DNA from: Ilyonectria destructans
Taxonomy: Eukaryota; Ascomycota; Sordariomycetes; Hypocreales; Nectriaceae
Reading direction: 5' to 3'
DNA length: 64,000 nucleotides
Assembly (NCBI GenBank): GCA_020740775.1
Contig: JAHEWK010000004.1
Span: forward strand, 1 to 64,000
In this document: positions 3,441 through 32,044 of the stretch, piece after piece
Layout: every line of letters starts with the position of its first letter
How positions within the stretch are numbered: the stretch's first letter is position 1
Position numbers and translations under genes: made by a program
Notes under the pieces: generated by a model
Told to the model about the DNA's origin: nothing
Seen by the model: only the letters and a program-made list of their open reading frames with translations
The model's database searches: none

Positions 3441-6400
3441 AAATGTTAAGTATTAATAGAGATAACTTGCTCGAACCGGTAGGCGAATTTATCCTCTGCT
3501 ATTAAAGCTTTAACCTGCTATTACTCTTATATAAATAGCGTAGATACTCTGGGGTTCTTAGGAGTGAGTTCTCCCTATAGCTGCCCGAGAAGCTGCTACT
3601 ACTTTACTTATAAGTAAGCCCTGCAGCTGGCCTCTATAGCCGGAATAGTAAGAGCTGCTATTACTACTTCTTAATTAGTAAGTAAGTTATTAGCCTAATA
3701 GTAAAATAACTGCTTTAAGTTTAAGTAGCCCTAAAAGAAACTAAATAAGAGTATATTAGCACTTTAGTTTTAGTAGCTTATATTATCCTTTATAATAGTA
3801 AACAAATTATCATCCAAAAAGGCAGGGGGCCTATTAGAAGTAAAGTTTCTAAATACAGAATAAAAGCCAAGTAGATAGAAAGTGTAGTTACTGCTATAAA
3901 ATTCTATTGCAATCTAATTACAGTCGGCAAGCAGACAGACTGCTACTTCCAACTAATCTAACACTATATAATAGACATCTACTGCCAGAATATATAAAAT
4001 ATAGCTGATATTCTTAAGGTTATACTTCTACTTAAGAGCCTTATAAAGTTATCCGAGACTATTACTATATAGACCTTTTTAGTCCTCAGATATAGGGAAT
4101 ATATCTGCTAGAGGAGTAATAGTAATACTCTCTAGGCTTACTCTAATTATCTCTAATAGTATAGAATTAATAGCTTCTCTTAACTTATACTGGCTGTCTG
4201 AAGCGGACTATTAGTAGCTAAGATCAGACTTAGAATAATTACTAGCCTCTATAATATTCTTACCTTCTTTATCTACCTCCTCCCTACCCCTATTATTCTC
4301 TTAGTTAGTTTTATTACTATTATACTCTACATCCTACTGATATATCTATATATAAGTCTCCTGCTCTAAATTCTATATTATAGGGTTTATCTTAATCTCA
4401 ATATTTACCCTATAATTATATATATAAAAGGCCGGCTAATTATCAATCCAGTATATATTATATAATTACTACTTAATAAAGTCAGGCCAGCCCTCTATAA
4501 ATAGATCTTAAAAGGTTATCTATTTACTAAATACAATTATCTATAAATACTGTTCTTTAAGTATCTATAAGGGCTCTATACCCTCTCTAAGAAGTTCTCT
4601 ATAAAGAAATACTACCTTAATATAGGATATAAGCACCTCTACGTAGTGCCTTATAAGTATACTGCCCTATTGCGCCCGACCGATATATTAACTATTTAGC
4701 CTTAGTAGGGCTGCTTAAATTGGATATATAATAATAAACTAAGCTTCTTACATTATACCTATAGTAAGACAAAAAGTACGACCGGTAAGGTTAAATAGTA
4801 TACCTTCTATATATTTAGCGCTATATAGTACTTGCCAGTATTATAGTAATATAGTAATATTATTAAAGAAGTAGCTATAGCAGCAGATCGATTGGAGTGG
4901 CTAACTAATAATACTAATAAAGTTCAGTTAGAACCTGGGGAAGTATATATTATCTTCTCTAGCTGGAGTTAAATCTATCTTCCTACTTCTATAGTTTATT
5001 ATATATAATCGCTATAGTATATCGAAAGTCTGTACGCTATTAAAGTTAGAATTACTTATCTTTATAATAAAGTTAGCTACTATAAATATCAGGCAGTATA
5101 TTAATATAGATATAAGAGATATAGAATAATAAGTTAAAGGGTATACTGGTGGGGTTATACAGTCTATCTTAAAGCTGCTAGAGGAATAGGTAATTCTCTA
5201 TTTTAACTGCTGCTATTCCCTTATCTGTAAGTTAGCGTCCTCTTTATCTATATCCTTTAAGGTATTATTTGTCGATAGAGGGTGGAGATATATAGCCACT
5301 AAGCCTATCTTTATCCTCCTCTTAGTTAAAAGGTATTTCAGTATTATAATTGTCGGAAATTCCAATATTAAATAGAATAAATATAGTTTCAAACTGTATA
5401 TTAAGCTGTAGAGTAAATTATTAGTTGCCTGAAGCCCTTTAATAATTCTCTCTTTTATATACAGTATAGCAGTATCTTCTTATTCCAGCTATATTCTAAT
5501 TGCTTTTTAGTATACTATATAAATAAGTATATCTATCTAGAGGCAGCAGTCTGAGTGTACACTCTAGTAGCTTTAATAGAAATATAACTAGCAGGTAGAT
5601 ATAAGATATAGAAATTACAGTAATCTAGATTATAGTAGCCACCTGATATAAGGGAGGACTTATTATAACTATTATCTATAAGGTCTATAAAAAGTAAGAT
5701 AAGTTTAGTACTAAAATTTCTTATTAATAAGTATTGGAATTTAGAAGTAATATAAATAATATAGCTAGTAAGATATATTATTACAATAAGATAAAGTAGA
5801 CTATTATTAAGTGTATATTCTATAGAAATATAGTATATAATATATATATACTTAATATAACTAAGATATAATATAAATAATTTTCTTATAATCCAACTAG
5901 TCTATTATTTATATAGGGTAACTCCTCTTAATAATAATAGCTACTAGATGTTACAGTAAGTCTATCTGCTTAAGCTAGTCTCCTCTTTTTCTAACTGGCT
6001 AAAATAGGCAGGCCTAATATAAATCCTCTTACCCAATTATTAGTATAATTCTCCTTTAAGGGGCTGAGTCTAGCCAGTAGTCTAATAATTATAGAACTCT
6101 ATAGCATTCTTAATATATTCTTAATACAACTTAATACAGGCGGGGAGGGCTCTATTCTTACTGAAGGTAGTAAATAACAAGCTGCCTGCTTATCTCCACT
6201 TTACTTTTCTAGCTATATTATTATATATATAGCTGGAAGCTGGTCTAATTTCTACTGACTGGGAAAGAATTCAATAGAGACCTTATATTTCATCTATATT
6301 AATTTAATTAGCTGGACTAACTCTATTAATAATAGCCTTCTATCGTCTAATTCCTTATTATTTAGTACTTACTAATACTACTTTATTACCTACTGGTAAA

Positions 6401-8866
6401 TACTATAATTAATAATAGCAGCCAGCTCTATTAAAGTATACTTACTTATCAGTATGGGGTTTTCTGCTACCTTTAGTATGTTTTAAAGTTAGCTGCAGAT
6501 AGCCTGTATAAGGCTTAAAACCAGCTGGTAGCTTAAATAATAAGGCTCCTGAAGGTCGGAGATAATAGATCTCTATACCGGCTGAAAGTATAGGCCGACT
6601 ACTTCCTTTACGATTTAGTAAAGGTCCTTCTAGATGTCATCCTTAAATTATATACTATAGCTATTATCCCCTTCTTCCAGTATTAACTTCAGGTAGAGTA
6701 TAGTTAATAGGTCTTAAAATGCCTCTATATAGCCTCATATAAAATCGAGTACTTATTACTTAAGCAGAATAGAGCGCTATTCTGCCTATACTACTGAAGT
6801 AGTATTACTCTCTAAAAGTTAGCCAGAAGGTAGAGCTATTTTAAATAGTACACTCTGGCTTATAAGGTAGGGTAATATATACTCTTATAAGATAGAGACT
6901 ATATACTTTTACAGTAGGGGCTTAATATTGTCTTATTAGCAGATAATATCAGTAGGCTCTAGTATAACCCAGCCTATAATATAGGTTATTATATCTATTA
7001 TAATTCAAGCCTTCTTTTATTTTATATTAAGAAGCTGGTAAATATCTGGAAATTAGAGTATAAGGTACTCTATAATATAGTAATATACCTTATAGTATAT
7101 CTAGTTATTAAGAGCAATAAGAAAACCTGGCTTTTAATATACTTCAGATAATAGCTGGAATATACTAGCCTCTTGCTATTAATAAACTGGAAAGAATAGC
7201 TGCTATATTTTAGCGGCCGTACAGTTAATAGATAAGTACTTTAAGAGCTCCTTCCAGTCTGTAGCTAGAATAGAATTAATAGTATCTTCCGGGAGTACTA
7301 CTAATATCTCTAATACTTAGTTAAATATAGTAAACTAATACTGCAATATATAGTTAATAGTAATATTCAGATATAAATTATATATAGGCTAGGAAACTTA
7401 TATTATTAATATAATAACTTGCTAGGTATTCCAAATTTATAATATTAAATATTTCCCTTCTAACAGCTATCTTATATAGTTAAGTAATTATTAGCTTCTA
7501 ATACTTATTCCTCTATAGTATAACTAGCCAGCTGGTGGGGAACCAAACATTACTACTAAGGTAAAGAATATTAAATATACTCTTTTCTACTGCTACTTTT
7601 ATCTACTTCTTAGAGAAAAAGCTACTATTGTATTTAGATATAACGATAAGCTGCATCTAAATCTAGCTATAACTATTAGGTATAGCTAAATTCTGCCAAT
7701 TTAGCTGCAACTTAATATTTAATTTACTTAAAAGTATATCTGCAATATATACTATTAGTAAATTACACTTAAGAAAAGCATAAATACTTATCTCAGTTAT
7801 AAAACTTATATACCTACTAAAGCTCCTCTAAATTAAAACCAGTATACTTTATATACTCCTATAATACTTCTAGGTGATACTGGCCAGCTATAACCTCAGC
7901 CTTCTTATTATTAATATATAGTTAGTTCTGAAATAATAAAAGAGCCTTACTTTTATTCCTTAATCCAGCAGTATTAATTATATTCTAAATAGCCTATACA
8001 CTATATAAAATAAAGATATAGTTTTCCTTAGACACTCTTATTAGTTTTTCTTAATAGAATAACTGGTATAGATTCTATATATACACTTAGTTAACCTGTT
8101 AATTTGGAATAATATTCCATATATAGATAAGAGCTTATATTAGTATCTTAGCAGTAGCCAGTTAGTATAGCTTAGCCTGCTCTTAGATAGAATTAGTCTT
8201 CTTAAATATCTCTTTAGTATTACACCGGACCTATTTAGCAGGTGTAGCCTCTAATTTAAGTGGATATTTAGTTAACTTATACTTTATTTTAAATATATAT
8301 ATATTCTCTATCTATTTATAGAAAAGAAGATAGATAGCCCTTAAAGCTTTTATTATTCTTAATTTTGCCGCTTCTTATTAGGGGGTCCTACAGGTAAGTT
8401 CTGAATAGATAGATAGAATAGGCCTAAGGCTTCAGCCGAACTAAAAGAAGTAATCTTAGCTCCTTAAGCCACTTAAGCGACCTTTAGTATCTTATATAAC
8501 CTAGGTAGGTCTTACTAGTAGACAGCTATACTGCAGACACAATAAGCACCCTTATAACAATAAGATATAACTATTCAGAATAAATAATAGCCCGGTATAT
8601 TAGTTTTAAATCTTAGAAGTGTTCCCCTTATGGAATCTTACCCTCTAATGTTCTTTTTTATGCCTACTCGACCTGCTGCTGACAGCAGTATATAATTATA
8701 TTCCTTATTGGGTTGGGCTATACTACTAGCTGTACTTTTTCTCACAGATTATATTACTACTTCAATATATTAATATATTGCTACAGTAAAACTGATACTC
8801 TTAAAGCTGCTTACCTTTATTGGGGCAGATAGGTTATAAGTAGAATAGCAGTTTCTTTATCTGCCC

Positions 8867-9200
8867 TACTGACCTTACCTTATATACAGACTGCTGCCCC
8901 TAGGGGCAGATATAGGTCTACTTATATATTATACACTCTCTTATATCCATTTATTTATAATATTCACTTACTTATTATTATTGCTTACCTTACCTACTTT
9001 ACCTTATTTATATAGAGATATATACAGACTGCTACCCCTAGGGGCAGATACAAGTTACATACTTCCCATTACTTCCCTTTAACATCCATTCTATCTATCT
9101 ATTATTATAATTGCTATTCTTATTATTACTGATCTTACCTTACTTACTTAAGGAGGTATACAGACTGCTAGCCCTAGGGGTAGTACTAGCCTTACTCTTT
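8867..9200. repeat. About 138-bp tandem repeat with CCCCTAGGGG core
   Basis: Two full and one partial copy of a unit of about 138 bp. The best conserved part is TATACAGACTGCT followed by the palindrome CCCCTAGGGG and CAGATA. The cores begin near 8881, 9019 and 9157, so the spacing is constant. Pyrimidine-rich CTTACCTTACCT segments also recur. The last core (9157-9185) has lost one palindrome arm base. The array abuts the left edge of the G-rich block. Confidence 0.65.
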
Positions 9201-9239
9201 AAAATTATATAGCCTGTAGAATTAGTATAAGTGGCTCTG

Positions 9240-12200
9240 AAAGGAACTATTCCCTCGAGAGAAACCGAACGCGAACCGTAGAACCGCCGACTGGAAAAAC
9301 TGCACTATAAGACCCGCCCGTCGAACCTGGAGAAAGACCCGCCCGCGAACCGGGAGAAGACCCGCCCCCGAAGCGGGAGAAAGACCCGCCGGCGAACGAG
9401 AGAGAGAGACGCGGCGGGGGAGCGGACGGGCCCGGCGACGCGGGGGCGGACGGGGGGGCGCGAGGGGGGGGACCCGACGGGCGCGGCGACGGGGCGGACG
9501 GAGGGGGGCGGCGAACGCGGAAGAGACGCGGCGGGGGACGGGGGGAGACGACGGGGGGGGAGGGGACCGGGGAGGGGGCGGGGGCGGGGCGGCGCGCGGG
9601 ACGGGGAGAGGGCGGGGGGGCGGGGGGCGGGGGGCGGGGGGCGCGGGGAGGAGGGGCGACGGGGAGGCGGGGACGGACGCGGGCCGGCGAACGCGGAGAG
9701 AGACGCGGCCGCGAACGGGGAAAGAAAGGACGCCCGGGAAGCGGGACGAGAAGGACGGCGGCGAACGCGGAAAGAAAGGACGCCGGGGAAGGGGGACGAG
9801 AAGGACGGCCGCGAACGCGGAGAGACGGACGCGGCGGGGGGGGGGGGGCGCGGGACGAACGGGGGGGGGGGCGGGGGCGGGGGGGGGGACGGGGGGGGCG
9901 GGGGGGCGGGGGCGGGGGGCCGCGACGGGGCGCGGGGCGCGGAGCGGGAGCGGGCGGGGGGGGGGGGGGGCGGGGGGCGCGCGAGGGAGGCGGGCGGCGC
10001 GGCGGGGAAGGGACGCGGGCGCGCGCGGGGGAGCGGGGGACGGGGCGCGGCGGGGACGGGGAGGGGGGGGGCGGGGGGGGGGCGGGGGGGGGGGCGGGGG
10101 GGGGGGGCGGCGCGCGGACCGACGAAGGACGCGGGGGCGCGCGCGGGGGGAACGGACGGGGGGCGGGGGGCGGGGGGCGCGACGAGCGGGGGGACGGACG
10201 GCGGGGGGCCCGCGGACGGACGAGCGGCGGCGGGGCGGCGGGGGACGGGCGAACGCGGGGGGGGACGACGGGGGGGGGACGGGGCGCGGGCGGGCGAGCG
10301 GGAGGGGCGGGGCGGGCGGGGGCCGCGGGGGGGGGGAGCGGGAGGGAGAACCGGCGACGGGGAACGCGGGGGGCGGGCGGGCGGGGGGGGGGCGCGGGGG
10401 GCGCGGACGCGGGGGGGCGGGGGCGGGGGGCGGGGCGGGGGGGGACGGGCGGGGGGACGCGGGAACGGGGGACACGGGACCGGCCGCGCGGCGCGCGCGG
10501 GAAGCGGGGGGCGGCGGCGGGCGGGCGGGGGGGGCGCGGGACGGACGGGGGAGGGCGGACGGGGGACGGGGGACGCGGAAGGGCGCCCGCGGGGGCGCGG
10601 GCGGGGGGGGGGGGGGAACGGGGGGCGCGGGGGGGGCCGGGGGGGCGGGCGCGGGGAGCGACGCGCGAACGCGGGGCGGGGCGGGGGGAAGGCGGCGGCG
10701 GCGCGGGGGGACGGGGCGGGCGGGGGGGACGGGCGAGCGGGCGGAAACGAGAAACGCGAGACGAACGGAAGGAGCGGGGCGGGAGACGGAAGCGCGGGGG
10801 CGGGAGACCGCGGCGGAGGACGCGGGAGCGACGCGGGAACGGGGGCGGCGAGAAACGGACGGAACGACGAACGGGCCCCCGGGAGAACGCGAACGCGGGG
10901 GGGGAAAGCGGGCGGCCGCGAAAAAGAGGGGAAGCGAACGGGGAAGGCGGGAGCGGGGGAGCGGAGGGGGCGGGGGGAACGGGGGAAGGGCGGGGACGAC
11001 GGGCGGGCGACCGGGGGACGGGAGGGGGCGGGGGGCGACGGACGGGGAAAAGCGAGCGGGCGGCGAACGACCGCGGAAAACGCCGCGGGGGACGCGGGGA
11101 AGGGCGAGCGGGGGGGGGGGGGCGGGGAAGACGCGGGAGCGAGAGGCGGAACCGCGGGGAAGCGGGGGCGGGGCGGGACGGGGGACGCGGGAAGGGGACG
11201 GCGGGCGGGGGGGGCGCGGGGGGGCGGGGGGGGGCGGGGCCCGGGAAAGGGAACGAACGAAGGAGACGCGGGGAGCGAGACGGAGAACGCGGAAGGCCGA
11301 CGGGGCGACGCACGCGAGAGACGGGGGCGCGGGCGGGGGGAGGCGGGGGAAAGCGGGGGGAAGCGGGCGGACGGGGGAAAGCGAGGAAGCGGGAAGGGAA
11401 GGGAAGGGCGCGGGGGCGCGACGGGAACGGACGACGCGGGAGCGAGACGGAAACGGCGGGGGGGCGAGACGACGGACGGAACGAGGGAGCGCGCGAGGGG
11501 AGAACGGGAACGCGGGGGGGAAAGGACGGGCGAGGGAGCGGGAGAGGGAGGGGCGGGGACGGACGGACGGACGGGGGGGAGGGAGCGACGGGCGGGGGCG
11601 GGGCGGGCGGCGGACGCGAGAGAGACGGGGGACGGAGGACGGGGAACCGGGGGGCCGGAGGGAGGCGGGACGCGACGAGCGAGCGGGGGGCGGAGGAAAC
11701 GCGGAGGGGAGCGGAGCGGGGGGGGGAGGGCGCGGGCGGGCGGGGAGGGCGGGGGGGGGACGGCGGGGGGGGGACGGGGGGGGGGGACGGCGGGGGGGGG
11801 AGGGGGCGCGGGGGGCGGGGGAACGGGGGAACGGGGGGCGGCGCGGGGGGGCGGGGGGGGGGACGAGGGAACGGCGGAGGGGGAGACGGGGGGGGAAGAC
11901 CGGGGAGACGCGGGGGACCGGGGGGCCGACGGCGCGGGAGAGACGGGGCGGGGGGACGGGCGGGGGGCGCGGGGGCGCGGGGGGGGCGGGGGGGGCGGGG
12001 GGACGGGGGGGCGCGGCGGGGGGGGGGCGGGCGGAGCGGGGGACGGGACGGGAGCGAACGACGCGGGGGGGACGGGCGGGGAAGCGGGACGGGGGGACGG
12101 ACGGCGCGGGCGCGGGGGAACGCGGGGAGGGACGCCGCCGGCGAAGAACGCGGAGAAGAACGCCGCCGGCGAACCGGAAGAGAAAGACGCGGGGGAACGG

Positions 12201-14215
12201 GAAGAAAGGAAACGACCCGCGGGAAGGCGGAGAAGAACGACGGCGAGAGCGAACGGGACGGGGGGACGGGGAGAGGGGGAGCGGGGGCGGGGGAGGGGGG
12301 GGCGGGGCGAGGGGCGGGGGGAGGGGGGAGGGGGGGCGGGGGAGGCGCGGGAGGGGGACGGACGCGGGCGGGACGACGCGGGGGAAGCGCGGGAGAGACG
12401 ACGCGGGCGGAGCGGAGGGGAGGGGAGCGCGAGACCGACGGCGCGGGAGGGGGACGGGGGGGCGGGACGGACGCGAGAGAGGAAGACCGCGGGGAAGCGG
12501 GACGAGAAGGACGGGCGCGGGCGCGCGAGGGCGGGCGGGCGGCGGGGGACGGGGGAGCGGGGGAGCGGGAGAGAGCGGACGGAAGACGGGGGACGCGGGG
12601 GGAGCGGGGGGGAGCGGGGGAGGGGGAGGGGGGCGCGGGGGCGGGCGGGGGAGGGGGAGGGGGAGGGGAGGCGGGAGGGGGGGAACCGGGGGGGAGGGAG
12701 CCGGGGAACGGGGGGAGGGGGCGGGGAGGGGGGGAGGGGGGGGACGGGGGAGGCGGGGGAGGGGGGGCGGGCGGGGCGACGGACGGGCGGACGGGCGGGG
12801 GGAACGGACGCGACGGGGGAACCGGGAGAGAGAACCGACGACGACGCGGGGACCGGGGAAAGCGAGGGGGGCGGCGGGCGGCGGGGGGCGGGGGGCGGGG
12901 GGCGAAGGGGACCGACGAAGAGAGGGCGCGGGGGGCGGCGGGGGCGGGGCGGGGGGGGACGCGGGCGGGGAGAGCGGGGGGCGGGGGGGCGGGGGGAAGC
13001 GCGGGGGACGGGGGGACGACGGCGGGGGACGGGGGAACGGAGAAACGCGCGCGGCGGACGGGGGAGAACGACGACGCGAGAGACGGGAGAGAGAGGCGGG
13101 GCGGGCGAACGGCGCGGGGGACCGGGGAAGAGCGACGGCGGACGCGGCGGCGCGGGACGGGGGGCCCGGGGGGAGAGGGGGAGCGACGGGGGGCGCGACG
13201 GGGGCGGGGGGCGGGGGAAGGGACGGACGAACGGGCGGGGGCGGACGGGGGCCGGGGGGGGACGGGGGGGGGGGGGAGGAACGCGCGCGCGGGAACGGGC
13301 GGGAGCGGAGGGGGAGGAGAACGACGGACGCGAACGGGGAGAAAGACCCGCCCGCGAAGAGGGAAAGCGAGGCGCCGGCGAACGGGGGGACGGGGGCGGC
13401 GGGGAACCGGGAAAGACGCGCGCGGGGGAACGCGGAAAGAAAAGACGGGCGGGCGGGAGGCGGGGAGAGAGACGCGCGGGGGAACGGGCGGGGCGGAAGA
13501 GGGAAAGAGGGGGGCGGGGGAAGCGGGAAACGCGGGGGGACGCGAACGCGGGGGGGGGCGCGGGGCGGGGGAACGGGGAAAAACGGGCGGACGCGGAAAG
13601 ACGGGCGCGGGGGAAGCGGGAAAGAGAGGCGCGGGCGAAGGGGGAAACGCGCGCGCGGGGACCGGGGAACGCGGGCGGCGGGGAACGCGGGCGGCGGGGG
13701 GGGGGAGGCGGGGGACGCGGGGAAGGGCCGCGGGGGGCGGCGCGGGGGAGAGGGAGGGAGGGGGAACGGGGAACGCGGGGGCGGCGAGGGACGGGGGAAC
13801 GAGGGGGGAGCGCGGGGGAGGAAGGCGGACGGGAGACGGGAGGGAGGGAGGGGGACGGGAGACGGGGGAGGGGAAGGGCGCGAGGGGAAGGGGACGGGGG
13901 ACGGGCGCGCGGGGGGGGGGGGGGGAAGGGGGAAAGACGCGGGCGGGGGAAGCGGAAAAGAGAGGCGCGGGGGAAGCCGGAAAGAGAGGCGCGAGCGAAC
14001 GCGGAAAGAGAGCCGCCGGCGAACGTGGGAGAGAGAGTGAACGGGGAAGGGGGAAACGCGGGGAAGGGGAACGGGGAAAGAGAGCCGCGGGGGAGGCGGG
14101 AAAGAGAGGACCGCGTGAAGCGTGGAAGACGCGCGCGCGAGAAGGCGGAAAGAGGCCGCGGGGGAAGAGGCGTAGCGTGGGGCGATAAGCTCTAATTCGT
14201 GGGGGGGGAAGCGTT
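9240..14215. repeat. G-rich, T-free minisatellite-derived block
   Basis: A 5-kb tract of G with interspersed A and C on the + strand. I find no T from 9329 to 14025 (4,697 bases). At the edges a degenerate unit of about 24 bp is visible, approximately GAAC-nn-GGAGAAAGACCCGCC-nn on the left and GAAGCGGGAAAGAGAGGCGCGG on the right. Two clean copies occur at 9707-9816. Towards the middle the unit dissolves into G runs up to 15 long (for example 9956-9970) broken by single C or A. With no T, all six frames lack stops and also lack ATG, so long proline/arginine frames here are not genes. G-quadruplex potential is extreme. Collapse or miscalling of an unstable array during assembly cannot be excluded. 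Confidence 0.85.
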
Positions 14216-15060
14216 AAAAGACTCTCTTTTAATATTTTATTTAATCTCTACTTTATATTCTTTTTATTTAAATCTTAATTTTTTTCTTTTTTTTATATTT
14301 TAACTCTTTTTATTTATTTTATTTAACTTTTATTCTATATTATTTTCTTTAATCTTTTTACTTAATTCTTACTTTTAATTCTCTCTCTTACTTTAAATTA
14401 CTCTCTTTTTATTACTGCTAACTCTTTCTTTTCTTAAATAACTCTCTTTTTATTACTGCTAACTTTTCTTTTTCTAATTCTAGCAGTTAACTCTTTTTCT
14501 TTTTTACTCTAGCAGTTAATTCTTTCTTTTTCTTACTCTAGCAGTTAACTTTTCTTTTTCTTACTTTAGTAGTTATTTTAACTTAACTATTAAAAGTATA
14601 TAGCTAGCTTCTAATATAACTATTTAAAGTATATAGCTAGCTACTCTATCTATTAGTATTATTCTATATAATATAACTCTAGCTTTTAATATAACTATTT
14701 AAAATCTATCTATTAATACTATTTTATATAATATAATACTAGCTTCTAATATAACTATTTAAATAGCTTATATTCTACTTTAAATAGTTATATTTAAATC
14801 TATAGTTTAGTATTTTCTAACAGTCTTATTAGAAGTCTCTAGCTTCTCTTTAAATAGATTTATTTAAAGCCTATAGCCTTCCTTCTAATAGCCTTATTTA
14901 AAGCTTTTAGCCTTCCTTCTAACAGCTTTATTTAAAGTTTCTAGCTTCCCTTCTATTACAGTCTAACTCTAATTAAAGCTGCTATTATAAGCTGCTACTA
15001 TTATAAGCTAGCTGTAAATATCCTTACTTATATACAGCTAAAGTAATAGAAGCCTGCAGT
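14216..15060. repeat. T/C-rich tract with short tandem repeats
   Basis: Immediately after the G-rich block the + strand becomes strongly pyrimidine-rich. At least three tandem families follow one another. About 14,400-14,580 holds roughly 30-bp units containing CTCTAGCAGTTAACTC and a T-rich tail. About 14,582-14,775 holds roughly 35-60-bp units around TAATATAACTATTTAAA and TATATAGCTAGC. About 14,840-14,950 holds roughly 36-bp units with CTTCCTTCTAAYAGCYTTAT and TTAAAGC. No gene is seen. Confidence 0.65.
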
Positions 15061-15076
15061 TAAAAAGGCTGCTATT

Positions 15077-15195
15077 TCCTCTCTCTCTCCCTCTCTCTCT
15101 CCCTCTCTCCCTCCCTCTCTCCCTCCCTCTCTCTCTCCCCTTCTTCTCTATTGCCTCTATCCTTCTCTCCCTCTTGCTGCTGCTGCTGCTGCTGA
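15077..15195. repeat. (CT)n/(CCCT)n microsatellite and (CTG)6
   Basis: A polypyrimidine microsatellite of CT and CCCT units (15,077-15,142) is followed by six CTG triplets (about 15,176-15,193). Read on the minus strand in the frame of the helicase pseudogene, the CTG run is a CAG run coding a short polyglutamine. The CT tract codes a Glu/Arg/Gly-rich tail. These simple repeats may therefore have been the C-terminal coding tail of that gene. Confidence 0.75.
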
Positions 15196-18100
15196 ATAAG
15201 CCAGCTGAATAAAGCTATTATATTTGTTATCTCTACGCCGCCAACAAGCTGCAGATGCTGTTGCCCGAGCTAATTCTGATAGTCCCTCTTATCTTATAAG
15301 GCTTGCTTAATGATCTCTTTCTCCATCCAGGCCCGAATTAGCAGCTGGGTAAAGGCAATAAAGGCTAACGGCAGTACGATATGCTTATACCTACAGCTTC
15401 GGCCCTGATCCTTATAGCCCTCCGGGTATAGAGTCTGAGAGAGGTGGCAGTAAAAGCAGCTTAGGCACTGCCCTTGCCTGCCTCCCTTATAGCAAATGCC
15501 GCTCTGGAATTGTATTGTGTTTGCAAAGGAAGGCATATATAGCTCGCCCTCGGCTGCAGCTGCAGCCTCTATACCCTCTGCCCCTCTGCCCTCTGTGCCT
15601 TCCAGCCTGGGGCAGCGATACCACGAATGTCTTGCCTCGGCGGCTCCATATAGCAGCCAGCAGGGCCGGCACCCCATCCTTCCGGCCTTGCCTAGCCCTA
15701 GGCCCAGTGCGAGGCCGTCGATTTCCTCAAGCGCAGCCTCGATCGCGGCCAGCTCCCGGCTGCTTTGCTGCCCCTAAGCTTGAAGAAGGGCCGGCCCTAG
15801 AGCGAGCGGCTCGCCCTGCTGCTGGCAGTTATTGCAGAGTACGGCGTCAGGGCTAATAGCGCGGCAGCTGCAGTAGTCCCCATCCATATATCGGCCTAGG
15901 ATATAACGCCGGCACCCCTGGGTCCAGATCAGGCTTGCTATTTCCTGCTGTTCCTCCTCCCAGTAGGCCTCCTGCTTGGGGTTGCCGAGAGGCCAGTTTC
16001 GCTCTTCAACTACAACCTCTGCAACTGCCTGCTCTCCGGCCCGCCCGGCCCGCCCGGCCTCCTGTATATAGCTAAGGATACACCAAGGCAGGTCGAGGTG
16101 GATGATATGCACGACGGCGGCCACATCAAGCCCGGTGCCTAGGGCGGCTGTGGCTACGATATAGGGCGTCCGTCCCTCGACCCAGTCTTCAAAGCCGCTA
16201 TCTCGCTGGACCAGAAAGGCGGCATCGGGATCGTCTGGCTCTCCGTGGTAGTAGCAGCAGCCTAGCTGTAGCGCCACCGCCTTACAGCTCGCGTGGCTGC
16301 GGCAGAAGACAATGCCCTTCTCCCCAGGCTGCAGCATCTTAGCCCGGGCGGCTACGAGCTCTTTTACCTCGCGAATGCCTCGGCTATTTCGGACTTTATG
16401 GACTTTAAACTGCAGGTTAAGGCGGTAGCTTGAGGTGCAGATATAAATAGGATTTCGCAGCAGTATAGCAGCTTCAAAGTCCGGCTGCTTATACTGGGGC
16501 AGTATGGCCGTAAGGAAGACTAAGGGGCAGCAGAGGCCTCGCAGCAGTATGAGCCGCTGCAGCCTCTCTCGATAGGTCTGCGCTGCCGTAAAGGTCAGGT
16601 GGCATTCATCGATAACGATACGGTCGAGCCAGTTGCTCACGGTCAGCCCTGCAGCCCACTGCAGGAAGGTCTCGCTCACAGCGGCCTCGGCCGAGATGAT
16701 AGTAACAGTAGGCCATAGGTCCTGCGCTTCGGGCCAGGCGCTGCAGGTTAAGCCTGCCTCTCGGCAGCGGCTAACCAGCTGTACCTTAAGCGCGCGGAAA
16801 GGCACGACGATAATCGTCATGCCGGCGCCGATCAGGAGGGCCGGAACCATAAAGACCAGGCTCTTGCCGGCGCCGGTCGGAAGGATCGCTACTAGCGGCG
16901 TCTGCTTGGCGGCGGCTCGCTGGATGGCTTCCTTCTGCTCGGCCGAGCGAAAGTCGGCGCCCTCATCCTGCAGAGCCTGCTGTAAGGCCCGGCGGAGGAG
17001 GCGGTCGTGGCTAGCTGGGCTGCTGCTGCTGTCACTGCCTTCTCCGCTAGCCTGGAGTTGCTCGAGGGCAATAGGCCAGCTGCTTACCTGCTGCCTCTTC
17101 TCCGCCTTCAATAGCAGCTCGCTGCTGGCCGTGAGCCTCCTCTTCTTCTTCTCCAGCCCGGCCTCCAGCAGCAGCGAAGCCGCCTCCCTCCCTGCTAACC
17201 CTTCTAGCTCTTTGGCAGCCTCCGCGGTCTCGGCCTCAACCCCAGCTGTGCCGCTGCAGCCGAGGAAGCGATGCCAGCGCCGGCTAGCCTGGCCAAAGAC
17301 CTCGAGAGACTCGGAGGTTAGCCGCTTCAGGATGTCAATCGTCACGCTGTAGCCGGCCGCCGTGCGGCTCGTGTGGGCAGCCATAAGGTCTTCTATATCT
17401 TCGTAGCTCTCGGCCTCCTCTTCCTCAGCCTCAGCCTCGCCGGCTTCGTTAAAATTCGCCCTCTGAGCCCCCCTCGCTTGCGTATGCCGTCTGCCGATAG
17501 CAATAGCTATATGCCGCCATTGCTGGAGGGTAATCCTCTGGCCGGCGTAGTGCTGGCTCCATTTAGCAAGGGCCCGGGAGAGCTGGCTGCTATCCCAAGG
17601 CGTGCCGGGGCTCTCCGGCTGATGCCAGATGAAATCGCTCGGCAGGTAGACCTTATCGTAGAGAGCCCAGCGGCTGCCCTGGAGGCGGTCTGTAAAGGGT
17701 CGGATATAGAGCATATACATCACTATCAGCTGCCCTACCCAGCCTGGCAGCATCCGCGGGATCACCTTGGGGCTATCGAAGTGGGCGAGGGATTTGTGGT
17801 ATTGGCTGACGAGGACGACCTTGCCGTCGATAATAAAGAGGCTGCGGTCCCTATTGATGCCGTTAATAAGCCGCAGGCCGGTGATTTCCGGGCCTCGGAG
17901 GGGGTGATTTATAAGGTGGACTAGAAGTAAGAGCAGCTCCTGGAATCTCTTGACCTGCTGTAGATACTGCTGGACCCGGGGCCATTTCCACTCATCCCGG
18001 CCGTCGAGGAACTGCTTCTTCAGGGGCCCGGCAATCAGGTTCTGCAGCATCTCCTTTTCCCTGCCGAGCAGGCTGTTAGTGTGGAGGAAGGACTGGCTGT

Positions 18101-20105
18101 GCTGGGTCTGCGTTAGGTCGTCTTGAATAGTAGCAAGAGGGATAAGAAAGCGGCCTTCTTGCTCCAGTAGCCCCAGACCCTTAGAGCCTGAGCCCGAGCC
18201 TGCCTTATAAGGCCGGAAGAGCAGCCCGTCCCAGAGGAGGTCTTCTGCATCGGCTGTCATGCTTGCGACCAGCTGCCGGATTATCTCCATAGCTAGAGGC
18301 CGACCTTGGAAGTAGAGTAGCGTGCCGTCCCTATTCCACACTACAGCCAGCCGGCTGCCGGTCTCAAAGGCGATCTTCTTCCTATAGAGCAGGAGGTTGA
18401 GGATGTAGCCCATCGGCGCATAGCTGGACTTACACAGCCAGGCCTTCCGGATCGCTGCTAGCCGCTCGGGCAGGTCAGCCATCGCCGCCCGGTCCTGGCT
18501 AGGCAGGGCCGCCTCGGCTACGACCGCCCGGGCTGTGTAGATAAGGCCGGCGAGGATGCCGGTGAAGTGGTGCGCCGGCCGCAGCTGGCCCGTCTCGCCG
18601 TTAATGCCTAGGACGGCGACGAAGTGCTATAGCGGGCTCGCAAAGGGGTCGGAGGGCAGGCGCTGCATCCAGAAGCCGGCTAGAACCTGCAGGACCTCCC
18701 CTTCGAGGCTGCTGCTGCTGCTGCTATCTTCCCCTTCCTCCTCTTCTTCTCCTTTTCTGCTGCTGCTGCTGCTGCTGGTCTCCTCCGCTGCCGCTGCCGC
18801 CCTCTGCAGCCGGCTCCAGAGCGCTTCGAGCCGGCCTCGCTGCGCCGGCGTAAAGGAGAAGGCGTGCTGCTCGACGAGGTCGTCGGCGCCGAGGGGCAGG
18901 ACCCTCATGCAGTAGCAGAGGAAGCGCTTGCTGTAGCCCAGGTACCGGTCCATGCTGGCCTTTTCCTGCAAGGGCCCAAACGGCCGGCTGTGGGGGTCTT
19001 CGGGGTAGGGGCTGGCGAGGAAGAGCCGGCCGATAAGCGGCATCTCCTGCAGGCCCGCAACGCAGCCGCGGAAGAAGATGCTGTCGAGGGCCTTTACAAG
19101 CAGCTCGAGGCCCGGCTCGTCCTCGGGCTGCGGCATGCGGCTGGCTAGGTAGATAGGGCGCAGGTCTCGGCCGCCAAAGTGATCCATCCAGCCTGTATGC
19201 CGCAGCCAGTTGGTAATCTCGTGCTTGCGAACGCCGTCTTTAAGCATCTGGAGCTGCCTTTCCTGCTGCTGGCCCTGCTCGTAGTCCCACTGCAGCTGGA
19301 TGCTTGCTGCTAGTTGAGCCTGCTGCCTCCTCCTAACCCTTCCGGCCTCTATATCTTCTTGGTGTATAGCTGCTGCCGCCACTATTGCCGTAGCAGCTGC
19401 CTTTTCCTCGTCGTCTTCCTTATCATCTTCCCCGTCATCTTTCTTATTAGTTGCCGCCTCAGCTGCTGCAGTTGCTGCTACCCGAAAGTATCGCTGCTTC
19501 TGCTGTAGCCTGGTAAAGAAGGTCTGGACCCCAACGCCGAACCAGAGGCCGTCTCTGGCCCGGCTGCTCCGTGCTTCGTGGACCTGGCTGCAGTGCCCTT
19601 TGCATAGCTTCCAGCTGACAGTAAGGAAGCCGGGGCACCGTCGGCAGCCGAAGCCGTGGCGGATCGGCAGCCCGGCAATAGGGGCTGTAGGCTCCCTCGG
19701 CGGCAGCTGCTGCCTCTCGGCCGCTCCGGGCCGCTGCCAGCTCGGCCCTGTTAGGTCGCGCCCTCGGTAGTGCCTCAGGAGGGCCCTATAGGCTAGCCGG
19801 TCGAGATCGGAGTGTTTTCGTTGTAAGTGGCTCTCTAGGTCGGCGACGGCATAACCGTGGGTCTTGCAGACTAATGCCTGATGGGCGGGATGATAGATAA
19901 GCCAGCTCTTGCTAGCAGTAATAATCGCCGGCGGCTGTAGCTGCAGATGTATAGGCCTATTGGATGCCTCTGCCTCTGCCTCTGCCTCTGCCTCTGCCTC
20001 TGCCTCTGCCTCTGCCTCTGCCTCTGCCTCTGCCTCTGCCTCTGCCTCTGCCTCTTCCTCTTCCTTCTCGCCCTCTCTCTCTTTCTCTGCTGCTGCTAGG
20101 TCCAT
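15181..20105 (-). pseudogene. Nonsense-interrupted DUF3505 zinc-finger / RecQ-type helicase gene
   Basis: Three long open segments (20105-18627, 492 codons; 18482-15774, 902 codons; 15677-15294, 127 codons) are all in the same minus-strand frame. They are separated only by in-frame TAG codons at 18627-18629 and 15774-15776, with protein-like sequence continuing through both. TAA at 15294-15296 and TAG at 15270-15272 interrupt the tail. The N-terminal part carries an acidic Glu-Ala repeat, then OrsD-like DUF3505 features: CKTHGYAV...HLQRKH and CRRCPGFLTVSWKLCKGHC followed by VQTFF. The middle part has a possible tyrosine-recombinase-like segment. The helicase has PTGAGKS (residues 535-541 of the 902-codon segment), DECH (625-628), ATAALGTGLD and QEAGRAGR, then a RecQ-type Cys cluster. 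Such RecQ-like genes are often subtelomeric or mobile in fungi. The stops fit CAG-to-TAG changes, so I call it a recently silenced gene. Recoding or assembly error is less likely. Confidence 0.8.
19966..20053. repeat. Coding hexanucleotide (TCTGCC)n repeat
   Basis: About 14 uninterrupted copies of TCTGCC. On the minus strand they encode alternating Glu-Ala near the N-terminus of the interrupted helicase gene. The copies are perfect, so the tract is either young or prone to expansion. Confidence 0.9.
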
Positions 20106-20470
20106 TGAGTCGGCCTATTATAAAAGAGCGTTAGAAGAGAGAGGGGGGAAGAAAGAGAACCCCCTCCCTCCTCCTTTCCTTGGTTTTTTCTCTTATCTCT
20201 CGGCCGGCGCTTAAGAGAGAGGGGGGAGGCTGTGCTGCGATTGGCTGGAGACCGGTTATCCTATGGTATACAGTCATCCTATGGTATAGTGGATGCGGCG
20301 CCGCCCGTGCGCGGAATTTTGGGCCAATGGCGGCGCGCAAAACGGTCATCCTATGGTACCCGAGTACCACAGGATAACCGCGGAATAGCGGTTAGGTGTA
20401 GTATTTACTGTTTATCTCTACTGTTTGAGAATACTGTATGGCTTTGATCTATCTGATGATATTGAGTAAA
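20106..20470 (-). promoter_or_regulatory. Upstream region of helicase gene with repeated GGTTATCCTATGGTA motif
   Basis: Three direct copies of a motif near GGTYATCCTATGGTA lie at 20253-20270, 20272-20288 and 20342-20360. An inverted copy follows at 20364-20380, forming a hairpin with a 3-4 base loop and about two mismatches in 16. A perfect 6-bp inverted repeat AACCGC/GCGGTT lies at 20376-20393. CCAAT boxes occur as ATTGG near 20240 and CCAAT at 20324. A 17-base A run (20474-20490) marks the switch to AT-rich DNA. The motifs could be regulator sites or an element end. Confidence 0.5.
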
Positions 20471-20474
20471 GCTA

Positions 20475-23400
20475 AAAAAAAAAAAAAAAACCAAACCAAA
20501 TAAATATAATTAAGATATTTCCTAAAGTTTAATTACTTCTTTATTTAGTATATAAGATATTCAGTTTTTAATACTAATTTAGTATATTACTCTAAAGAGA
20601 GATAAGTAAAATAATAATAACTATTATTCTACTAGAGTAGCTAGCTGCTAATAATATAAAGTATAGACTCTTACTAATATTAATTTCTATTATTACTATA
20701 ATTAGACTCTTATTTATTATAATTAACTTAACTGCCTTTTATTATTTACCTTAAAAGTAAGTTTAATCTCTATATAAGCAGTAAAGTTCTTAATTAATAT
20801 TAATCTACTATAGGATTTTCTACTACTTAAGCTAGAGTTTTTATATTACTTTATAGTATAGTAATAAACTTTTCTACTTATACTCCAGCTTAAAAACCTC
20901 TTTAAATCTATTAATAGCAGATAGAAACTTTAAAAGCTAATATTACTCTTAGCTAATAAACTGAAAATTAATATACTGCTTATTTATCTTAAAATAACCT
21001 TTAGTAATAAGCTGCCTATAGATTAAGCTTATAATTAAGAATCTATATCTAGCTTAAATATTCTATAGACTATCTTTATTACTGTTATTATTACTCTTAC
21101 TGCTATAGCTTTTATTTACCTTACTAATAAGAGTTATATATACTGTAATTACAGTTTAAAAATACTAATATATAAATATAATAGTAAGATACCTCTAGCT
21201 ACTAATTATAAACTTCTTTTTACAGCTAAATTAGCTTATTCTTTATAGAATATAAATTATTTAGAGTAATATTTAGTATTACTTAAAGCTCAGTCTGTAT
21301 ACTCTCTATATAGACTCTTATAATAAATTAATCTTACTTTTAATTTTACCTATATTTAACTTATACCTATTCTTACTATTACTGATATTATTATTTAAAG
21401 TCTTCTCTATAGCCTAAAAATTAATACTAAACTAATTAATATTTTAAATATTAATCTATATCTTCTTTTAGTATAGTAATATAAGCTAGAGATAGTAAAT
21501 TAATAGAATATTAACCTTTTAAAGTATAAATTAATAGATAATCTTAAGATACTCTATCTTAAAGAACTCTTTATAGTAGTTAGTAATAAGTATAATAAGT
21601 TTACAATCTATTAAGATATTCTATATCCTACTATTTACTATATTATAATATTATAGAATAAAAAGCTTAAATACTTATATTAGCTGCCTGCTATAGAAAT
21701 AAATAAAAAATAAGAAAACCTTAAGAAATTCTTTTAAATTTATACTGTAATATAATATAGCTTTTTTATAGAGCTTAAAACTGAACTTTAAGTTAGACTG
21801 TATCTATTCCCTTTAAAATTTATTATTCTTCTATATCTTTTAAAAGAGTTAACTCTTACTTATAGAGTTAAATTAAAAGAGGCTCTCTATAAATAAATAG
21901 CTTATAGTAGTATTAGCAGTATTATTAATAAAATTACTCTATAAAATCTCAGATAGCTTAAGCTTAATAGGTAATTAATTCTTAAAATTCCAATAGAAAA
22001 ACAGCTTTTTATAGAGTAATAATTCAGCTTATTATAAAGCAGTCTAAAGTATTAACTAAATATTAAGAATATTAATCTAAAGGCTCTTATAGATAGTATT
22101 ATTACAGTTCCAGCTAATTAAACTTTCTATAGCCTTATTACTATTTACTGCTATACTGTAATTATAAAGTTATATAATGAACTGTATTAATATAGTATTC
22201 TAGCTCTTACTGCCTCTAACTATAAATTGGTATATTATATTAAAGATAAAATTAAAATAGCTTAAGCTATTCTTCTTTATATTCTTTTAGCTTTAATCTT
22301 ACTGCTTTTTTTATTAAATAGACTTAACTTACTTATTAACTATATACTTAATAAGTAGAAGATATAAGATAGCTATAACAGCTAAAAGCTTTAATATAAA
22401 ATTACTATAGGTTTTTTATATATTATTCTTATAAATACTTAAAACTATTAAGAAGCTAATAAGAATACTTTAGTATTTAGTAACTTTAGTAAAATAGTTA
22501 AAAATAGAGATATAAAGCTTTAATATAGCTTTCTTAAGTAGAATTTATATTTTTACTATCTATATTATATTAAGATTAATATTCTTCTCTTATAGAATAT
22601 TAGTAAGCTTATTAGTATACTATATTATAATACTATATATAGCAGACTGCTTTTTATTAAGCTTAAATAGTAGTTAGTTTACTAAATTCTTAAATACTAT
22701 AAAGTGCATAATATATATAAATAGCTATAAGTATACTATAATATATCTCTTTTAAATTACCTTTTTAAACTTAAAGTGGAATAATATACTCTACTTTTTA
22801 TTAAGCTTCTTCTAATTAATATTAAATAGTATATTCTATAAGATAATACTTAGCTTTATTACAGCTATAATATAGTAGATAAAATACTAAATAGTAAAAT
22901 AAATCTATTAAAGCTTAATATTATTATTACTCTTTAGATTCCCTAAATTAATAGTGTATTTAAGTGAAATTAAATTCTATAGAAACTTCTTCTTTCTATT
23001 AAATTTCTTTAGGTAAATAGATACTTCTAGTCTATAAAGCTATATATTTAAAAAAGTAAAATTACTTTACTTCTTAATATTCTTAGCCTCTTACTTCTAG
23101 ATATATTTTACTTTTAACTAAAAGACTTTTAAGATCTATTAGATATTTATCTTTATATTTTATACTTTAGCTCTTAAAGTATTAAGATTTTAACCTTTTA
23201 TAATCTTAAAGTTTTTACTATATAGACTCTTAGTAAAGAGCTATTAATAGAAGACTTTACTTCTCTATAGTATATTAATCTATTTCTTTTTAGTTTAAGC
23301 TACTAATTAGCAGCTAGCTTTAAGCTTCTTATTTTAATTATAAACTTCTTAGAGATAATATTAGTTTCTCTTTAATATAGAGCCTATAAAATAGCAGCTT

Positions 23401-27177: not shown

Positions 27178-27352
27178 TGTCAGATATGTCAGTGGCGAAA
27201 GTTGCCACCTATTGCCACCTATTGCCACAAGGCTTAGCAATCAGCTTCTAGCTGATTCTATACAGAAGGGACAGGGTATATAAAGCTTGCTCTGAAACCT
27301 CAAGATATAGGGGGACACAATACACAACTTTGATTCACCCTAATATTTGACA
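27178..27352 (+). repeat. 5' LTR of copia element
   Basis: 175 bp, TGTCAG...TTTGACA. It contains a short tandem TTGCCACCTA repeat (27201-27230) and a TATA box TATATAAA at 27277-27284, placing transcription start near the LTR end. Only about 60 bp separate the LTR from the gag ATG. I could not identify a convincing tRNA primer site immediately downstream. Confidence 0.95.
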
Positions 27353-27412
27353 ATTAAGAGTCTCACTGCCTCAACCCATTTTAATATCTTTGAGAATCCC
27401 TCTATCTTATCT

Positions 27413-28627
27413 ATGATACTGCATAGAAAATCCCAGAAAGAAGGTCTTACAGCCACTCTTATAAAACCTGGGGACTTCCCGGACTGGGAGCACGAATTCC
27501 TTCTTCAGGTTGACCTTCTAGGTCTGCAACAGCACCTCAAAAGGAAGATTTTCCTTGAAGAGGAACCGGCCTTCCCCGATATCAGACGACGCAAATATAC
27601 CAAGACAACAGCAGCACAACGGACCATTCGATCAGAAACACCTGAGACTGAAGGGACCAATTCAGATGACATACAGGAGACAACCAACGGAACATGGTCT
27701 CTATCTGACCTAACTGAACAAGGTCAGAAGAGCTTCCAACAGGACCTCTCTTTATATCAGCTTCAAGAAAAATCGTCAGAAAGACAGAGGAAGTCTCTGA
27801 GAACCCTCCAAGACTGGGTTATCCGAACTGTCTCTCCCAGTTACGTCCGGACCTGTTGTCAGCCACGCAAGTCGATCTATGAATGGCATAAAAATCTTCG
27901 TGCCCGATGCGGGAGGTCAGAAGCAGACGAAACACGAGATGCCCGAAACACTTACTTGACCCTCATGAAAACGCCTCCAAAGACTATAACTCAAGCGGTC
28001 AAATGGTTAGAAGATTGGGAAGAAGCCCTGGCCAAAGGACAGCAACAAAAGGTCCCAGAGACCCTCTTTTGCAGCTCCTGGGCATATGACTTCTTCAACA
28101 TCTCTTCACAACTTCTCCCTGCCTGGACGGCAGCCTATGAAATTAGCCAACAAAACCTGATCCAAGATGAATCTCTTATCTATCGAGATCTAGCGAACGC
28201 CTTCCGGAATAAGCTCAAAAATGCAGAGGCCTTACGGGGCCCAGGTCGCACGGGAAATTTCTCCCAAGGTGCATTCTCTGCGAGCTTTGCTGGGGAGGAC
28301 CCCCAGGATGATGAACCAGAGGACGCTCGCATCATTGAAGGTCAGTACCGTTCTCTGAAGAAGGAAGGGCAAAGGACGAAGCGCCAGAGGCCTCCTGAAG
28401 AACAGGATAAATGCCCGGCATGCGGCCTACCCCATGTCCTTAAGAAATGCTTCTATGTTTTTCCAAACATAGCTTGGAGAGGGTTTAGGCCTCGAGAAAA
28501 ATTTCAGATAAAAGTAAGAGAAGCCCTCGAAGAAGACTTAGACCTACAGGCACAAGTGAAAGCTCTCACTCAGAAGAAGTCCAAGATCTCGCCAAAACTA
28601 GCCATCGAAGACACCTCTGACCAATGA
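27413..28627 (+). CDS. gag: Copia Gag
   Basis: 404-residue capsid/nucleocapsid protein that packages the retrotransposon RNA into cytoplasmic virus-like particles. I chose the ATG at 27413, the first in frame after the LTR; the frame itself is open from inside the LTR. The N-terminal part has the copia Gag pattern (IKPGDFPDWEHEFLLQVDLL). The C-terminal part has a CCHC-like zinc knuckle, CPACGLPHVLKKC (C-x2-C-x3-H-x4-C), near 28411-28449. It ends at TGA 28625-28627. The next codon continues directly into pol in the same frame, so Gag-Pol could be made by stop-codon readthrough (TGA followed by CTC) or the TGA may be a recent nonsense change. Confidence 0.9.
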   Translation: MILHRKSQKEGLTATLIKPGDFPDWEHEFLLQVDLLGLQQHLKRKIFLEEEPAFPDIRRRKYTKTTAAQRTIRSETPETEGTNSDDIQETTNGTWSLSDLTEQGQKSFQQDLSLYQLQEKSSERQRKSLRTLQDWVIRTVSPSYVRTCCQPRKSIYEWHKNLRARCGRSEADETRDARNTYLTLMKTPPKTITQAVKWLEDWEEALAKGQQQKVPETLFCSSWAYDFFNISSQLLPAWTAAYEISQQNLIQDESLIYRDLANAFRNKLKNAEALRGPGRTGNFSQGAFSASFAGEDPQDDEPEDARIIEGQYRSLKKEGQRTKRQRPPEEQDKCPACGLPHVLKKCFYVFPNIAWRGFRPREKFQIKVREALEEDLDLQAQVKALTQKKSKISPKLAIEDTSDQ

Positions 28628-31600
28628 CTCTATGGGCGGCTTATCGCTAAAGTCAACGCCGCATTTGCCGTTCAAAGCGATAACTATCCCTTACGAAAAT
28701 CTCAAATCCTAGACCCCGGAACAACGATCTCAATCACAAATGACCCCAATCGACTAGCTGATCTCCAGCCGGCCCTTCCAGGCGACTTCATCTGGTCAGG
28801 TGACCGAAAGTTACCAATTTTGGGATATGGAACAATGATAGTCAGGCTGACAAGAACTCGAGCCCTGTTGCTTGAAGATGTAGCCTACTGTCCCCGACTC
28901 CTCACAACTCTAGTCTCCTTACGTCAGCTACGGAAGAAAGGACTCTATTGGGATAACAGACGTGATCCAACGACCCTCCGTCATTCCGATCAGACAATCG
29001 CCTGCACGATCAAGGACCTATACGGTCAATACGTCATTGAATACCAACTGGCAGAGATAACCCCAGCGGCTTGGGCAGCCCACAAGTTCACCTCATACAC
29101 AAAGAGGGCTCCCTTGGCAGGAGAAGCTATACGCTGGCATAACCGCCTAGGGCATCCAGGACCGCAAGCTCTTGAACACCTTGTCTCAGCATCTCAGGGG
29201 GTGCGAATTCGAGGACCAACAACCGTCGAATGTGACGCCTGTGGCCTATCAAAGATCAAGAGACAAGTCAGACGGGCTCCAAGGCAGTCTATCCAGACAG
29301 CCGGTGAACGCATCGCTATTGATTTCCATGACTATGAAGAAGGCATAGGTAGCTATACCTCACAGATGCTTCTCACCTGCCGATCAACCGGTTACATTTG
29401 GGATTACTACCTTACATCTCGGACAACGGAGGCTATTATCGCAGTCTTCAAATCCTTCTTCGAACATCTACAAGTTCAACATAACATCAAGGTCAAAGTC
29501 ATCGAATGCGACAATGAGATCACAGAGGTCAAACCGCAAGTCGGAAACTTCCTACGGAATAGAGCCACCGTCATCGAGCCCTCGGCACCGTATAGCCAAG
29601 CCCAAAATGGCGGCGCCGAACGCTCAGGGGGTGTGATTAAGGATAAGGAAAGAGCCATGCGAACAGGCTCTAAGCTCCCTCATCAGCTATGGCCAGAAAT
29701 CGGCAAAACAGCAGTTTATCTATACAACCGAACGCCAAATTACAAATCAGGCTGGAAAACACCATACGATCAACTGCATACTGCAATAGCCAGAGCCAGA
29801 GGAATTCCACAACCGGTAAAACAGCCTGACCAAACACATCTAAGGGCATTTGGTTGCAAAGCTTATGCCATGACCCCTGAGGCACAACAAAAGCTCAACC
29901 GCAAGATGCGACTCAAACCGAAAGGATGGATCAGCTTCCTAGTTGGATACAGATCCTCGAATATCTACAGGATCTGGATCCCGACAATCAATCGGATAAT
30001 CAGCACCCGAGACGTCATTTTTAATGAAGACGAGGGCTGTAACGGAGACTGGGAAAACTTCAAGGATGACCTCTTAGAGGCAGACTTAGAAGAAATCGCA
30101 CGAATTGCATCCCTCCAAGACGAATCAATTGATCAGCTAGAAGCTGAAGACTCTATTGAGGTGGCTTTTCCTGAAGAAGAAGATGAACTCACACCGAACC
30201 ATCTCATAGTGGCGATTGACGAAATCTCACAGGCAAAGAGGGCAGAATACGAAGACTTCCCCACGCCTCCAGATACACCGCCATCTGCCCTACTCGCACA
30301 ATTACCTCAAAATGTGTCAGAACAAGGGAACAGAACTATCACATGGCAAGCAGCTTTTCTAGCTGGAACCAAATCTCCTCTGCAAATCTCAACAGAACGA
30401 AAGATCCGTCAAGGGGTAAAGATGCATAGAAGTGCATTACCTCCGGCACCAATGAAGCATCAAGATCTCATAGGACATCCATTGGAAAACCTCTTCCAGA
30501 AGGCTGAAGAAATTCATCTTCAAAGCCATAAGGAAATGAGGTCATGGACTGAGATCCGAGCCAAGGACCCTCGAACATTTGATCAACAGGTCCTAGGCTG
30601 TATGTGGGTGTACGTCTATAAAACAGACAAACACGGTTACTTTCAGAAATGCAAGGCCCGGCTAGTGGTGCGAGGAGACCAACAAGCAAAAGGGAAGCTG
30701 CAAGACACATATGCAGCTACCTTAGCCGGAAGGTCCTTTCGGACCTTGATAGCTATTGCAGCAAAATTTGATCTAGAAATGATCCAATACGATGTGGTCA
30801 ACGCATTCGTACATGCCCCAATTGATCAAGACATCTTCATGCAGATGCCTCCAGGCTATAAGAAGGCAGGAACTATCCTAAAGCTCAACAAAGCTCTATA
30901 CGGACTGAGAGTCTCCCCCTTACTGTGGCAGAAGGAGCTTTCTAGGACCCTCTTAGAGCTGGGCTACAAGCCAGTTCCACACGAGCCTTGCTGCTTCAGA
31001 AAAGAAGGAATCCTATTCTTCGTATATGTCGATGATGTCATTCTGGCCTACAGGAAAACACAAGAAAACAAAGCTAAGGACCTGATCAGACAACTCCAAT
31101 TGAGATACAAACTAACAGGCGGCAACCCCGTACAATGGTTCCTTGGAATGGAAGTCATACGGGACCGACCTACAAGGAAGATCTGGCTATCCCAAGCAGC
31201 CTATATTGAGAAAATTGCAAACCTAGCTAATAAAGGAACAGCTACAGTACCAATGACTCAGTTAGAGCTACGGCCTGCCACAGGGCTAGCAACCCCAACA
31301 GAAATTCAACGATACCAACGCAAGATCGGATCAACCCTCTATATCGCAGTCAACACCCGACCTGACATTGCCTTTGCCGTCTCCAGATTGGCCAGATTCC
31401 TCACCAATCCAAGTCAAATACACCAAGAAGCGGCTGACCGCGTTATCCATTACCTCACACATACAAAGAACCTAGCTCTATCTTTCGGAGGACCCGGCGG
31501 TCTCAGCATTGCTAGCGATGCCTCTTTTGCCGACAACACAACTGATCGGAAGAGCTCGCAGGCATATACCATCAAGCTGTTCAACGGACTGATCGGATGG

Positions 31601-32020: not shown

Positions 32021-32044
32021 GAAGTCATTGAATCTGAGGGGGTG

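Follow-up and report, generated by a model that had tools for sequence, protein, structure and literature searches.

The window, the whole 64,000-base stretch of DNA that was analysed, comprises bases 1-64000 of a 3,664,193-bp contig (C34) in a 71.7-Mb assembly of 74 contigs; other contigs are given below by their C numbers. Its most striking feature is a block of almost 5 kb without T, flanked by fringes of intermediate composition and followed by repeats and a helicase gene (Table 1). In a tblastn search of the helicase against plasmid records, three of the best 5 of 138 matches were annotated RecQ. With 50 of 121 candidates scored, the genome yields at least 65 match rows for this gene, and four of the ten best matches lie no more than 6 kb from a contig end (C10, C14, C41, and C73). 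Together with the neighboring OrsD frame, it belongs to a large helicase/OrsD-type family, with members at window 15774-20105 and on C41, C26, C10, C67, C40, C74, C14, and C73; several lie near contig ends and several contain many in-frame stops. The family resembles the telomere-linked helicases of fungi.

Domain searches identified further neighbors of fungal type: a Copia-type element, a PDR-type ABC transporter, and an ERG4/ERG24 gene. The Copia-type retroelement (RVT_2) occupies 27178-32225 and carries 181 bp direct repeats at both ends that are 98.9% identical; it looks like a recent insertion within AT-rich DNA. The PDR/CDR-type ABC transporter, on the minus strand at 51745-55689, extends over three open frames, as it would with introns or damage.

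Table 1. Coordinates of the block without T, its surroundings, and the adjoining genes in the window
Feature	Position	Strand	Basis
T-free block; probably a T-rich, G-poor array whose T has been recorded as G (and A as C on the minus strand)	9329..14025	+	0 T in 4697 bases; dinucleotides
Left fringe, partly changed, with both T and G at sites where the paralogs have T	9233..9328	+	Comparison with paralogs on C1, C10, C12, and C56
Right fringe, G still high while T returns	14026..14220	+	T counts per 40 bases
24-bp tandem unit, 3.7 copies, best kept at the left edge	9309..9397	+	86% matches; 9309-9420 is 88% identical to the unit
G-free array of T (125), A (44), and C (27) that seems to continue the block in unchanged form	14221..14416	+	Composition
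T-rich tandem repeats (41-bp and 29-bp units), where the C41 relative ends	14393..14575	+	Repeat detection; C41 match
Helicase gene with DEAD and Helicase_C domains, multicopy, outside the probable artefact	15774..18482	-	Domain search, tblastn, genome matches
Open frame with OrsD domain adjoining the helicase	18627..20105	-	Domain search

An earlier note on this DNA had reported that T is missing from the plus strand between 9329 and 14025 and that all six reading frames are thereby free of stops and of ATG. Both observations are exact. The run spans 4,697 bases (3002 G, 897 C, 798 A, and no T), more than any other T-free run in the window, and ATG, TAA, TAG, and TGA are absent from both of its strands; the open frames reflect the missing T and nothing else. 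The T-free runs ranking next, of 77 bases (14039-14115) and 49 bases (14124-14172), both lie inside the right-hand fringe of the block, and after them the longest are two runs of 36 bases elsewhere. As T accounts for 17,865 of the 64,000 bases of the window, a chance origin of the 4,697-base run is excluded.

The block does not end abruptly on its right side. Counted per 40 bases from 14021, T numbers 2, 0, 2, 2, and 8, followed by 23 in the interval from 14221. T thus recovers over about 200 bases, and the next 196 bases (14221-14416) lack any G on the plus strand, so that a G-free stretch, on which the earlier note is silent, abuts the T-free block. The right flank has a relative on C41, in which 188724-190157 matches window 14394-15770 at 86% identity. 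C41 itself ends at 190183, only 26 bases beyond the match, and the assembly therefore breaks where the array begins.

On the left side, relatives of the flank on C56, C1, C10, and C12 allowed us to compare the window with its paralogs site by site. A consensus letter required at least two paralogs to be present with 75% agreement; 85 of 252 window positions were excluded for too little agreement or lack of paralogs. At the 29 sites of 9216-9310 where the paralog consensus is T, the window reads T 15 times, G 12 times, and A twice. In 9061-9215, the 39 corresponding sites read T (35) or C (4) and never G. With the split between 9215 and 9216 chosen after the alignment had been viewed, this difference (12/29 versus 0/39) gave a Fisher P value of 7e-6, and it persisted when only unanimous columns were considered (8/20 T read as G within the fringe versus 0/39 outside). 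At two of the 12 T-to-G sites (9216 and 9286), one paralog has G as well; position 9233 is the earliest at which the window has G against T in all four paralogs. The other letters are preserved almost completely within 9216-9310 (A 32/33, C 17/17, and G 4/4). Therefore, T gives way to G on entering the block, with hardly any other change.

In four of the nine non-self match rows of the left flank, similarity ends at 9310. We rejected this as an effect of the base change, since the query stopped at 9330 and the relatives also diverge from one another beyond that point. At the place of the array, the relative on C56 (11551-13050) runs into other DNA, bounded by what visual inspection suggests are inverted copies of a motif resembling AAGCGAGTGGGACAAA and followed by apparent reverse-transcriptase sequence, also recognized by eye.

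Tracts of similarly extreme composition were met elsewhere during these comparisons, and those described here are the ones so encountered, not a genome-wide census. Among the loci retrieved at or around helicase-family matches, a T-free run of at least 100 bases was present on C28 only; it is part of a tract at 47084-47546 that spans 463 T-free bases (241 G, 113 C, 109 A). To its left lie 445 bases with T 249, A 115, C 79, and G 2, and to its right 300 bases with T 150, C 73, A 71, and G 6. Within the tract, G stands in the place of T, and A and C remain about level. A helicase-family match (C28:48920-50113) lies about 1.4 kb from this tract, parallel to the arrangement in the window. Tracts composed of C and T only, on C74 and C26, were considered as examples of the same kind and set aside as, by eye, ordinary microsatellites.

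A further comparison came from A-free, C-rich tracts on C2 and C57, which appeared among the relatives of the right flank. C57 is 27,665 bp long and collinear with C2 at the three places sampled: its bases 401-900 match C2:2677486-2677990 at 99%; 20001-20600 match C2:2697110-2697706 at 98%, with an offset that agrees with that of the first match within 24 bp; and 2,202 bases of 3573-6665 align to C2. Most simply, C57 is a redundant version of the C2 locus from about 2677086; it could instead be a recent duplicate or come from a second nucleus. The size and gene counts of the assembly may include duplicates such as this one.

Within one tract of 758 aligned columns, 442 of the 450 A of C2 are C in C57, a count favored by our lenient scoring of A/C (or T/G) mismatches, which was also used for the C70/C71 and C18/C71 alignments below. 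The other letters of C2 are kept at 121/122 G, 155/156 T, and 11/11 C, and this retention does not depend on lenient scoring of A-to-C. Upstream of the C57 tract, only one of 385 aligned A of C2 is C in C57, and five T-to-G differences from C2 occur. In the adjoining tract, C2 is itself A-free for 215 bases, and C57 carries nearly the same letters there. At the far border, C57 has A in place of 10 C of C2 within about 50 bases and C in place of seven A of C2, the latter mostly slightly further on; the borders of the changed tract thus differ between the two contigs. C57 differs from C2 by numerous one-base indels, with 25 gap columns among approximately 1030 unchanged columns. A single locus, other than that of the window, is accordingly present within the assembly in changed and unchanged form, as looked for in an artefact. 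When used as a query, the C57 tract matches the block of the window at eight places (67-69%) and C28 at one (72%), which is expected from their like composition.

A second group of contigs differs in a similar manner. C71 shares a flank with C70 (2638/2685 columns identical) and with C18 (2649/2679), and beyond it the forms diverge: C71 is composed of T, A, and C, C70 has A written as C, and C18 is partly G-rich. Under the lenient A/C scoring, 49 of the 62 mismatches between C70 and C71 are A-to-C. The comparison of C18 with C71 is weak, as 62 of 87 mismatches are T-to-G under a scoring that made T-to-G almost a match.

The window's own block has no second, unchanged version that we could find in the assembly; the best relatives of its flanks are 86-87% identical. 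Its dinucleotides were compared with those of the G-free flanks. Reading G as T brought the block nearest to the flanks (L1 distance of 0.255), and the five other relabelings gave distances of 0.495 to 1.250. A BLAST search of the block relabeled in this way against the fetched loci yielded a best score of 186 bits, hardly above the reversed control (178 bits) and a 3-mer shuffle (143 bits). Since neither an unchanged copy nor this search provides a direct match, we infer from composition and by analogy with the other tracts that the interior follows the same T-to-G rule.

Taken together, it is highly likely that the block is an artefact of base calling or of the consensus and that the true DNA is a T-rich, nearly G-free minisatellite array near a subtelomere-like helicase gene. 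This conclusion draws on the one-letter exchange between C2 and C57, which leaves the other three letters almost untouched, and on the partial change in the left fringe; the C28 tract, the C70/C71 mismatches, and the dinucleotide comparison add to it. Almost all T of the plus strand would have been written as G along some 5 kb, or equivalently almost all A of the minus strand as C. The earlier note had envisaged either strand-asymmetric conversion or the miscalling of an unstable array. The asymmetry and its specificity (T to G on the plus strand, A to C on the minus strand) are borne out, and miscalling is the better supported of the two because two contigs of another locus carry almost identical DNA, one with the change and one without it; a T-free, G-rich array as such probably does not exist. 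The exceptional potential for G-quadruplexes and R-loops that had been attributed to the block is most likely illusory, given that the actual sequence probably abounds in T and contains hardly any G, and the biological novelty of the block is most likely nil.

We consider a technical cause of the exchange to be by far the likeliest, and an error of long-read signal labeling in DNA that lacks one base is a likely candidate. In single-molecule real-time (SMRT) sequencing, if one member of a color pair were absent for hundreds of bases, the software might mislabel the remaining member. A strand free of G is free of C on its opposite, so that reads of both strands would agree on the wrong letters and a consensus could not mend them. 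We assume that in two-color, amplitude-coded SMRT chemistry A and C would share one color and G and T the other, which would fit the exchanges seen here. Both in the fringe and between C2 and C57, exchanges are almost exclusively A/C and G/T, in agreement with this assumed pairing of dyes. The base that is gained is also mostly missing nearby, with G at 0/196 in the right flank of the window, G at 2/445 beside the C28 tract, and C at 3/725 in the C2 stretch. The differing borders of the change in C2 and C57 likewise suggest a technical origin. C70 is an exception: the C71 form of its tract contains C, so the gained base is not missing there and calling of the absent base is no universal rule. 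Within the same artefact reading, and not in addition to it, some other machine cause, for example nanopore miscalls or polishing, may have acted in place of SMRT signal pairs; we regard this as possible though rather unlikely. Long reads of both kinds, when lightly polished, would be expected to leave one-base indels like those between C57 and C2, and the nearly exclusive exchange of A/C and G/T would have no obvious reason in nanopore sequencing.

Two explanations would instead make the unusual letters real. In one, the living fungus hypermutates one strand, with nearly all A becoming C (T becoming G on the other strand) across as much as 5 kb of repeat DNA lacking G, within some of the nuclei or copies; copying with dGTP or oxidized dGTP replacing dTTP would be one route. 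In its favor, the change affects one base in a strand-asymmetric way, its borders are graded, and several loci show it. Moreover, the changed letters of a common core occur in both C2 and C57, as they would after a heritable change, and we count this against an artefact. The hypothesis must nevertheless accommodate both states in otherwise collinear contigs of one assembly, and the same difference between C70 and C71 beside a nearly identical flank. It must also explain why 442 of 450 A changed when the other letters did so at only 0/11 (C), 1/122 (G), and 1/156 (T) sites; we know of no mutator that would fit such a pattern, with the other letters almost intact. We therefore hold real hypermutation to be very improbable. 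A processive, strand-specific A:T-to-C:G mutator that acts almost completely over as much as 5 kb of G-free arrays (C-free on the opposite strand), leaves graded borders, and operates alongside unchanged copies in the same culture would be remarkable if true, and we give it an equally slim chance.

The other explanation, a genuine T-free, G-rich minisatellite diverged through ordinary mutation, takes up the 24-bp minisatellite that the earlier note had described at the edges of the block. The unit is clear at the left edge (9309-9397) and reappears in islands at 9660-9840, 12130-12240, and 13320-13700, and the block contains 42 repeated 20-mers, compared with means of 8.5 and 12.4 in Markov models of order 3 and order 5. 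This modest excess of exact internal repeats fits a tandem array and says nothing about the cause of the missing T. Outside the islands, the description holds less well: the match of the T-free stretches to the unit barely exceeds that of their shuffles (scores per base of -0.35 to -0.57 versus -0.41 to -0.62, with five shuffles each), and a minisatellite reading of the block as a whole was rejected as the unit fits well in the islands only. In genome searches that skip simple repeats, 9240-9420 and 9309-9420 matched only themselves, and 9660-9860 matched only the block and its right fringe. Between islands, identity to the unit falls to 54-61%, yet without a single T. C-to-T is usually the commonest change, which argues against such T-free divergence by ordinary mutation. 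The T carried by the paralogs at left-fringe sites, and likewise the C2/C57 exchange, also speak against a genuine minisatellite of this composition, and we consider it scarcely credible.

If the block is a miscalled array, letter substitution can produce, in long-read assemblies, long runs free of one base, islands rich in G-quadruplex motifs, and frames without stops. Scans for extreme composition should first check the flanks and redundant contigs. An exchange of A/C or G/T, mostly where the gained base is missing, offers a simple screen.

Among the matches listed in our literature searches, no paper described one-base mislabeling of this kind, and the known systems that come closest each differ in an essential respect. 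Repeat-induced point mutation (RIP) in fungi changes C to T (G to A). It resembles the present case in affecting repeat DNA through a strand-specific base change in a fungal genome with AT-rich stretches, but the change here is T to G or A to C, and the fringe at 9216-9310, which retains all of its 17 C and 4 G and converts 12 of 29 T to G, does not bear the mark of RIP. The "dark G" error of Illumina two-color sequencing likewise loses T and gains G, and in the older scheme loss of the green channel would also turn A into C on the same strand. In the block, by contrast, A persists beside G. Passages of two papers (PMC9186530, PMC9241371) describe dropout of HiFi reads in GA-rich (TC-rich) DNA, the kind concerned here. 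The likeness, which we count in favor of an artefact, lies in accurate long reads failing in long purine-rich or pyrimidine-rich DNA, as C41 ends at the array; in those passages, however, the failure takes the form of missing coverage and not of base-for-base substitution.
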